DNA from: Hymenobacter sp. 15J16-1T3B
GTDB taxonomy: Bacteria > Bacteroidota > Bacteroidia > Cytophagales > Hymenobacteraceae
Reading direction: 5' to 3'
NCBI RefSeq assembly: GCF_020711235.1
Contig: NZ_JAJFAV010000020.1
Span: 1-64,000 of the forward strand
DNA: 64,000 nt
Shown: one piece after another, positions 25,897-62,733 of the stretch
Position numbering within the stretch: position 1 is the first letter of the stretch
Layout: the number at the start of each line of letters is the position of its first letter
Position numbers and translations under genes: made by a program
The notes under the pieces: generated by a model
What the model saw: the letters and a program-made list of their open reading frames with translations, nothing else
Databases searched by the model: none
What the model was told of the DNA's origin: nothing

Positions 25897-25997
25897 TGTC
25901 ATCCTGAGCAGAGCGAAGGACCTTACCACGTCAGCACGAAAACCGTCACAACGGCTCGTGCAGGTGTAACGAGGGCCTGCGCTGCGCTCAGGATGAC
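25897..25997. repeat. Palindrome family E (GTCATCCTGAGC type)
   Basis: Left arm 25897-25930 begins TGTCATCCTGAGCAGAGCGA; the right arm 25979-25997 is GCGCTGCGCTCAGGATGAC. The motif GTCATCCTGAGC...GAAGGA is a very common intergenic repeat in many environmental bacteria. The rest of the 319-bp spacer up to 26185 shows no gene and probably holds the transporter promoter. Confidence 0.7.
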
Positions 25998-28787: not shown

Positions 28788-29173
28788 GGCGCCGCTTCGC
28801 CTTGCCCCCCGGCCCCGTTTCCGAAAAAGCAGAGGGGGAGCCGGACGATTTTGGGCTACGGTGATACCCCGGCCGTCATTGCCAGAAGAACCAACGAATG
28901 GCACGGGTAGCACCCTGTTGTCATTGCGAGCGAAGCGCGGCAATCGTTCCTCTAGTAGCACCGCCGGCGCAACTGGCAGAAGCTGAAAACGGCACCGCCC
29001 GAAACCTGCAACTCGGGTCTCGGGCGGTGCCGTTTTCGGTCAGTGTCTAATTGCAGCGTCGTGCCGCGAGCGGAACGATTGCCGCGCTTCGCTCGCAATG
29101 ACTGCGGGGTGAGCCGCTGCTGACCCCTCTCCATTTTCGGAGACGGGGCCGGGGGGCAAGGCGAAGCAGCGCC
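28788..29173. repeat. Composite 386-bp palindrome of three nested inverted repeats
   Basis: Outer arms 28788-28827 and 29134-29173 are 40 bp with few differences and carry the family D start CTTGCCCCCCGGCCCCG. Middle arms, about 28919-28951 and 29070-29102, carry the family C motif CATTGCGAGCGAAGCGCGGC. The centre is the 18-bp terminator stem at 28985-29037. The unit fills the gap between the convergent aldolase and araC genes. No gene is seen in it. Confidence 0.8.
28985..29037. terminator. Bidirectional terminator hairpin
   Basis: GAAAACGGCACCGCCCGA (28985-29002) and its exact reverse complement (29020-29037) form an 18-bp stem with a 17-nt loop. TTTT runs lie at both outer ends of the stem. 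It lies between convergent genes, so it can stop both. Confidence 0.75.
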
Positions 29174-46835: not shown

Positions 46836-47434
46836 GTGCGCCTCACCCCCCGGCCCCCTCTCCGAAAAAGGAGAGGGGGAGCCACGGCGGAGCTGGTGGT
46901 TTTGTAGCTTGTTGGTTTTCTGATTCTATCCGATTCTATGGAATCCAACGAGCCTTACCTACCGCAGGACAAAATCTTTACCGCCGACCGGAAGCAGTAC
47001 GGCAAGCTTGATCTGAAAGGCCGCTCACGCGGGATGCGCCACGAGCCGACGCCGGCCGAGGAACTGCTCTGGCAGCGGCTACGCGGCAATCAGCTTGGAG
47101 TGAAGTTCCGCCGCCAGCACAGCATCGATAGGTTCATTGCCGACTTCGTCTGTCTCCCGCACAAGCTGATAGTCGAGCTAGACGGCGCCGGCCACCTTGA
47201 ACCCGACCAGGCTGAATATGACAAAGGCCGCTCCGAAATCCTGGCCGAGCTAGGCTACCGCGTCCTCCGCTTTTCCAACGACCAAGCCCTCCACGAAACC
47301 GAGCAAGTACTCCAGGCCATCAAGGCCAACTTACCACAAGCATAAGCCTCAGCACCCACACCACCCCAAGCCATCAAGAACTCGTCAGGCTCCCCCTCTC
47401 CTTTTCGGAGAGGGGGCCGGGGGGTGAGGCGCAC
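46836..47434. mobile_element. DUF559 unit: nuclease gene enclosed by 47/48-bp inverted repeats
   Basis: The left arm, 46836-46883, and right arm, 47388-47434, are exact reverse complements apart from one A in the loop. Each arm is itself a hairpin: CCCCCTCTCC, loop of A residues, GGAGAGGGGG, preceded by CCTCACCCCCCGGC. Between them lies only the DUF559 gene with 54 and 42 bp of flank. The unit is 599 bp. It separates two pectin genes. The same arm type (family D) recurs at 28788, 56655 and, degenerate, 62696. No clear target-site duplication is visible. Confidence 0.65.
46938..47345 (+). CDS. DUF559 endonuclease-domain protein
   Basis: 135 residues. The core pattern is MRHEPTPAEELLWQRLRGNQ, GVKFRRQHSIDRFIADFVC, then KLIVELDGAGHLEPDQAEYD and LAELGYRVLRFSNDQ. 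This is DUF559, a Vsr-like member of the PD-(D/E)XK nuclease fold, with D in FIADF and E-x-D in VELDG as metal ligands. No signal peptide, so it acts in the cytoplasm. The function of the family is not established. It has nothing to do with pectin and is bounded by inverted repeats, so it probably moved here. The codon use is less GC-extreme than in neighbours. Confidence 0.85.
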   Translation: MESNEPYLPQDKIFTADRKQYGKLDLKGRSRGMRHEPTPAEELLWQRLRGNQLGVKFRRQHSIDRFIADFVCLPHKLIVELDGAGHLEPDQAEYDKGRSEILAELGYRVLRFSNDQALHETEQVLQAIKANLPQA

Positions 47435-56654: not shown

Positions 56655-56818
56655 CGCCTCACCCCCTAGCCTCCTCTCCGAAAAGGAGAGGGGGAACTAA
56701 CCTTAGCTTCTCTAGTTCTAGCTCTCTTTTCGTCCGACGCCTGCCAAGCATCTCGCTCTAGAACACTAGAGGCTAGTTCCTCCTCTCCTTTTCGGAGAGG
56801 GGACTTGGGGGTGAGGCG
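56655..56818. mobile_element. MITE-like palindrome with family D arms
   Basis: Arms 56655-56702 and 56771-56818 are 48 bp each with about five differences and carry CTCTCCGAAAAGGAGAG hairpins and the CGCCTCACCCCC end. The 68-bp centre is also partly palindromic (TCTCTAGTTCTAG / CTAGAACACTAGA). No gene is inside. It looks like a non-autonomous relative of the DUF559 unit at 46836. It lies 10 bp before the esterase start codon. Confidence 0.65.
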
Positions 56819-62695: not shown

Positions 62696-62733
62696 CGCCT
62701 CACCCCCGGCGTCCTCCTCGAAGAGGGCGAGCC
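62696..62733. repeat. Degenerate single family D arm
   Basis: CGCCTCACCCCCGGCGTCCT followed by CCTCGAAGAGGGCGAGCC starts immediately after the GH78 stop codon. Only one arm is present, with a decayed stem. Confidence 0.5.

Follow-up and report, generated by a model that had tools for sequence, protein, structure and literature searches.

DUF559 nuclease genes packaged in inverted hairpin pairs: a candidate minimal mobile element of bacteria

Within a 64,000-nucleotide stretch of the genome of Hymenobacter sp. 15J16-1T3B (the window), a gene for a DUF559 nuclease lies between two inverted hairpins at 46836-47434. We propose, with a probability of about 0.6, that this unit is a minimal mobile element, in which the nuclease gene resides in a hairpin pair dedicated to it, and that similar pairs without a gene represent its non-autonomous form. 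Relatives packaged alike occur in several phyla, some of them in frame with host genes, which points to a minimal mobile element that has so far been little noticed. We infer mobility from five kinds of sequence comparison: the packaging of the genes, the co-variation of hairpins with nucleases, a dose relation between their numbers, in-frame occupation of genes that are empty in relatives, and the re-use of sites. Unrelated units occupy identical sites in different species.

The unit and its arms in the window

The left arm of the unit (46836-46883, plus strand, 48 nt) consists of a C-rich head, CCTCACCCCCCGG, followed by a 10-bp hairpin (stem 46854-46863/46870-46879). The right arm (47388-47434, minus strand, 47 nt; stem 47392-47401/47407-47416) is the same sequence inverted, and the two are mutual reverse complements except for one extra A in the loop of the left arm. 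The C-rich heads point outward from the unit. Both arms fold as hairpins, with modest z-scores when treated as single-stranded DNA (-2.44 and -1.79). The sole accepted open reading frame between them (46938-47345, plus strand; antisense frames overlapping it were treated as spurious) encodes an EDxHD/Vsr-like nuclease of 135 amino acids. Its product matches the PF04480 DUF559 profile (E 1.8e-33; 115.1 bits against a cut-off of 20.6), and its predicted fold matches those of I-Bth0305I and Vsr. The initial annotation, made from the letters alone, had described inverted hairpin arms of 47/48 bp with 10-bp stems around a lone Vsr-like DUF559 gene; the arms are confirmed at these positions, and profile match and predicted fold agree on the gene.

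Residues D69, E80, D82 and H86, which we take to be catalytic, are invariant in 15 of 15 aligned sequences. The nuclease is under strong purifying selection, with dN/dS values of 0.06-0.12 for eight pairs in which dS was mostly saturated and a median of 0.083 over 36 pairs. A profile search with the gene between the arms returned no transposase family at E values up to 1. The host genome contains a single DUF559 gene; the 22-nt core of the arms, in contrast, matches this genome 21 times with up to three mismatches, as opposed to one match for the reversed pattern.

Additional arms of the same type, hereafter type A, are found in the window. An inverted pair without a gene spans 56655-56818 (arms 56655-56699 and 56774-56818), and a single degenerate arm lies at 62697-62733 on the plus strand; arms had been noticed at both places before, the first as gene-less and the second as a fragment at 62696. 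The supposed fragments at 28788-29173 are indeed of the same arm type but make up one decayed pair (28799-29162; arms 28799-28842 and 29124-29162), in which a palindrome pair of a different family, GTCATTGCGAG, is nested (28920-28946 and 29077-29102). The gene-less pair at 56655-56818 is present also in congeners G202 and G198, while G197 and G199 have other palindromes instead. When recent jumps of arm pairs were sought in a 110-kb stretch around the window in five congeners, most arms were at shared places. Palindrome cores of the GTCAT type at 25898/25987, 28920/29092 and 37240/37333 of the window also form inverted pairs, without a listed nuclease.

Packaging of DUF559 genes and pairing with their arms

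The initial annotation had asked whether DUF559 genes are enriched beside such arms, and they are, strongly. We scored each gene by the best ungapped inverted match between its two flanks (+1/-2, thresholds 14 and 20), using loci that were the better-scoring among the matches listed; for the host family, the list covers 180 of the 204 genomes with a match. When L123-L125 are left out as duplicates of L032, L024 and L025, 101 of 108 distinct family loci, again the better-scoring among the matches listed, reach a score of 14, and seven do not. Stand-alone DUF559 genes of the family score at least 14 in 62 of 67 cases and at least 20 in 57 of 67, compared with 1/665 and 0/665 shifted windows. With flanks of 250 bp, arms surround 60 of the 67 stand-alone genes but only one of 150 neighbouring genes. 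Chance or base composition as a cause of the flanking is rejected, since shifted windows and neighbour genes are almost never flanked.

Similar packaging extends beyond the family, where partial matches (L297, L298, L328, L406 and L407) were left out of the counts. Arms flank 17 of 27 DUF559 loci in Pseudomonadota (controls 1/54) and 13 of 30 in Chloroflexota; the full set of loci scored along with the Chloroflexota gives 21 of 42 against 0 of 70 controls. They flank 13 of 14 loci on contigs deposited in IMG/VR, and nine of the 16 examined among 38 matching plasmid-collection records; a Sinorhizobium meliloti locus from that collection has an arm of 114 nt. In a scan of genome contigs, 31 of 80 loci reach a score of 14 as opposed to 5 of 537 controls, and at a score of 20 the numbers are 21 and 0; AT-rich Flavobacteriia score poorly among these 80 loci. 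About half of the DUF559 loci outside the family are without arms by the flank score, and none were found at the E. coli locus and at two of the Azospirillum loci. The arms are similar across groups, with the form CCCTCTCC-loop-GGAGAGGG and a CCCTCACCC-like head. In the family, stand-alone DUF559 genes are as a rule enclosed by arms, and in other phyla such packaging is common.

Several types of arms occur within the family, and arm distance tracks nuclease distance. Across 4693 pairs of loci at different sites, the Mantel correlation is 0.65 (rho), with none of 500 shuffles as high and the highest at 0.10; within type A alone it is 0.30, unmatched in 1000 shuffles. A few arm labels set by hand (L044, L049, L057, L070 and L078 as A; L107 as B) affect only the type-A subset. 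The Mantel test, like the genome counts that follow, carries no correction for phylogeny, and arms that hitch-hike along with the gene would yield its result equally well without recognition. Genomes with two nuclease types hold the arms proper to each (for example G015, G050, G073 and G203). The type-A core is present in 123 of 204 genomes; none of the listed genomes of one genus (g6) contains it, although many of them have DUF559, and the arms examined there are of other types.

The number of arms also follows the number of nuclease genes. In 120 genomes of genus g4, type-A arms increase with the DUF559 copies among the matches listed (rho 0.55, phylogeny uncorrected), the median rising from 2 through 6, 18, 28, 36 and 37 to 73 as copies go from zero to six. 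Gene-less pairs are dispersed through the genomes, and at the listed places in G011-G018, 24 of 27 sets of close arms are inverted pairs, with starts 27-166 bp apart. Two genomes without DUF559 among the matches listed nevertheless contain 57 (G049) and 39 (G114) type-A arms, suggesting that arms persist or move by other means, and seven genomes with DUF559 among those matches have no type-A arm.

Such arms in genomes with no listed DUF559 would suit an explanation in which another enzyme, for instance RAYT or some other transposase, moves the palindromes, with DUF559 either carried along as cargo or prone to being captured between them; so would the other palindrome families, of GTAGAGACGCG and GTCAT types, that take the same intergenic sites in relatives. 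We nonetheless regard this as unlikely. DUF559 is recurrently the gene enclosed, the type of arm shifts with its lineage even within one genome, and genes next to it are flanked in just 1 of 150 cases.

We draw nothing about concerted evolution of the two arms from their identities (0.968 within an element and 0.942 between orthologous elements; among 142 pairs the within-element value was above in 75, below in 42 and equal in 25), because arms were picked by left-to-right matching, which biases the comparison. A type-B pair at locus L355 has the same extra hairpin on both arms as mirror images, as if the arms change together.

Units inside genes and at sites used repeatedly

At 13 loci first classed as 'long-frame', the unit lies in frame with a host gene. 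With one example of each run, Pfam places DUF559 between the N- and C-terminal UvrD domains in L116; in methionine synthase it falls between the pair of B12-binding domains (L124) or at the protein's end (L113). Searches of the metH and helicase frames returned no intein family at E values up to 1e-5, and six loci searched against Rfam had no match. Should our reading be correct, the odd in-frame peptides of the metH and helicase genes are insertions.

In the window's genus, the unit occupies the helicase site in two of eight genomes (G199 and G203) while the other six are empty. These two lie apart on the host tree, each beside relatives with an empty helicase, so the pattern calls for either two gains or a number of exact losses. 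Comparison of G199 with G198 and G000, made by eye at this one site, revealed no target-site duplication and replacement of about 20-26 bp of the linker. The interior metH site in genus g5 is occupied in 3 of 16 genomes and empty in 13. A second metH linker carries in-frame arm pairs without the gene in G109, G046, G031, G013 and G098 and none in G123 and G033, and the arm subtype at this one place varies by species. Units also sit inside conserved operons (L371, L374, L376 and L203): one separates sufB from sufC in Sphingomonas, and in Deinococcus they are found at two different places of hpa operons and in a paa operon; such genes are among the plasmid-collection records.

Fifteen sites are common to at least two loci. 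The site behind a 719-aa gene, which receives no name from Pfam and which we read as flotillin-like, holds type-A units at four loci and type-B units at six; nucleases of the two types are 38-44% identical to each other while the flanks are about 90% identical. Of five loci examined at this site that have no evident DUF559, L355 and L362 retain a bare type-B pair, L356 has one decayed hairpin, L338 has a type-A pair with other genes, and L365 has no such repeat. At the GH2 junction, where the window's unit resides, the window's nuclease lineage is found in 9 of 11 loci and another, of 50-55% identity, in the remaining two.

That different lineages have repeatedly settled at precisely one codon or junction, together with the predicted homing-nuclease fold, would be expected of a pure homing gene, whose nuclease cuts specific empty sites and spreads by allele conversion while the arms serve as insulating or terminator hairpins that it does not recognise. 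This, too, is improbable in our judgement: it leaves unexplained the dispersed gene-less pairs, the dose relation and the pairing of arm with nuclease at different sites, and hairpins within reading frames would make odd terminators.

The copy in the window is an old and conserved insertion, kept by vertical descent, and did not jump there recently. Congeners G197, G198 and G202 have the unit at this GH2 junction, as do L109, L054, L098, L064 and L056 of another genus, which marks it as old and by now immobile there. The initial annotation had suggested looking for empty sites at this junction and had taken a shared position with neutral decay of the arms as a sign against mobility. One congener, G199, is indeed empty of the unit, while the other three and the five loci of the second genus are occupied; the position is shared, but the arms are nearly identical, the nuclease is constrained and G199 lacks the unit. 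In G199 (L136) the junction has a different inverted repeat, GTAGAGACGCG... (GTAGAGACGCGA...TCGCGTCTCTAC). A repeat similar to it stands in G197 where the window has the gene-less pair at 56655-56818.

Proposed mechanism and related systems

In the element that we propose, the nuclease would recognise the arms, the target or both, and then cut. Host recombination or synthesis would repair the break and thereby copy in the stretch bounded by arms; a copied stretch with the gene would be an autonomous element, one without it an arm pair, and the spread would be homing-like instead of transposase-like. DUF559 belongs to the hydrolytic nucleases, which suggests that the enzyme cuts and that host repair joins, and the predicted homing/Vsr nuclease fold would make repair of a cut a likelier route than transposase chemistry. 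Recognition of the arms is suggested by their co-variation with the nuclease. The lack of a target-site duplication and the replaced linker at the helicase site are consistent with copying by repair. Of the autonomous/non-autonomous pair suggested by the initial annotation, the comparison supports the recurring package and, as the non-autonomous partner, the gene-less pairs. The analogy with RAYT and REP sequences fits in outline, but the enzyme is not a transposase, its predicted fold being that of homing/Vsr nucleases.

Likeness to REP/RAYT systems (REPtrons, REPINs) lies in small hairpin palindromes that are dispersed, occur in inverted pairs and flank the gene for an enzyme; REPs inside genes are on record as well (accessible part of PMC3733652). 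The enzyme here, however, is a metal-dependent EDxHD/Vsr-like nuclease as opposed to an HUH tyrosine transposase, and the window arms have, in place of a GTAG tag, a 10-bp C/G stem and a C-rich CCTCACCC head. The same part of PMC3733652 describes CGTC-tagged REPs that apparently have no dedicated transposase and resemble our arms in forming inverted dimers, having intragenic copies and lacking an attached HUH transposase. In those REPs, however, the stem has 8-9 bp, begins with A-T pairs and adjoins the tag, whereas the window arms have a 10-bp stem with a C-G base and a CGTC several bases off; strict membership was rejected, as the arms break the stem rule published there.

Palindromes in frame in protein-coding genes are a feature shared with the Rickettsia palindromic elements, for which no nuclease gene is named in the accessible part of PMC3733652; units described here can carry one. 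Known members of the EDxHD homing endonucleases, among them I-Bth0305I (3r3p), occur in introns or phage genomes and bear DNA-binding extensions (PMC3943268), while the window nuclease is a single small domain between palindromes. As with homing elements, a given site is filled in some close relatives and empty in others at exactly one position. The helicase site, by eye and as a single case, differs from IS and MITE insertions in showing no target-site duplication. The literature searched, which left most subscription papers outside, contained no description of DUF559/Vsr-like/EDxHD or GIY-YIG genes paired with palindromic repeats.

That DUF559 is simply a repair enzyme of the Vsr kind which selection maintains, with ordinary REP-like repeats collecting as arms in intergenic space, is very unlikely: the low dN/dS of 0.06-0.12 at the window site, a sign of strong purifying selection, and the tie of a Caulobacter DUF559 protein to cytosine methylation and the SOS response (accessible part of PMC12907096) favour it, but two-sided inverted packaging far beyond that of neighbour genes, whole units in frame inside metH and a UvrD-type helicase, and patchy presence at fixed sites render host function alone insufficient by the existing comparison.

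For many palindromic repeats of bacteria, no enzyme is known. Stand-alone GIY-YIG genes of the window's genus are packaged in a similar way, 14 of 19 having inverted palindromes of other families (GTCATTGCGAGG..., GTCATGTCGAGC..., GTCATCCTGAGC... and GTCAT-type) on their two sides; such flanks were seen for 0 of 11 GIY-YIG genes in long frames and for 0 of 60 control windows. The sample comprised 30 of the 39 matches listed (L408-L437). EDxHD and GIY-YIG are both families of homing endonucleases (accessible part of PMC3943268). It is conceivable, at somewhat less than even odds, that DUF559 and, independently, GIY-YIG nucleases each drive their own dedicated palindromes by cutting and repair, forming a transposase-free class parallel to RAYT/REP that would account for a sizeable share of the interspersed bacterial palindromes still lacking an explanation, in-frame copies included. 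If so, several palindrome families would gain enzymes (DUF559 and GIY-YIG), a large family so far named only as 'unknown' (DUF559) would gain a function, and the movement of small DNA without a transposase could be put to in vitro tests that need a protein of 135 aa and an arm of 48 nt.

A different arrangement was seen in Neisseria (NGO0050, PDB 3hrl). Beside the N. gonorrhoeae relative of PDB 3hrl (L367), the hairpin repeats found were two copies of CCTCTCTCC, both on the same strand and both to the same side of the gene, and the inverted-repeat score is 11.
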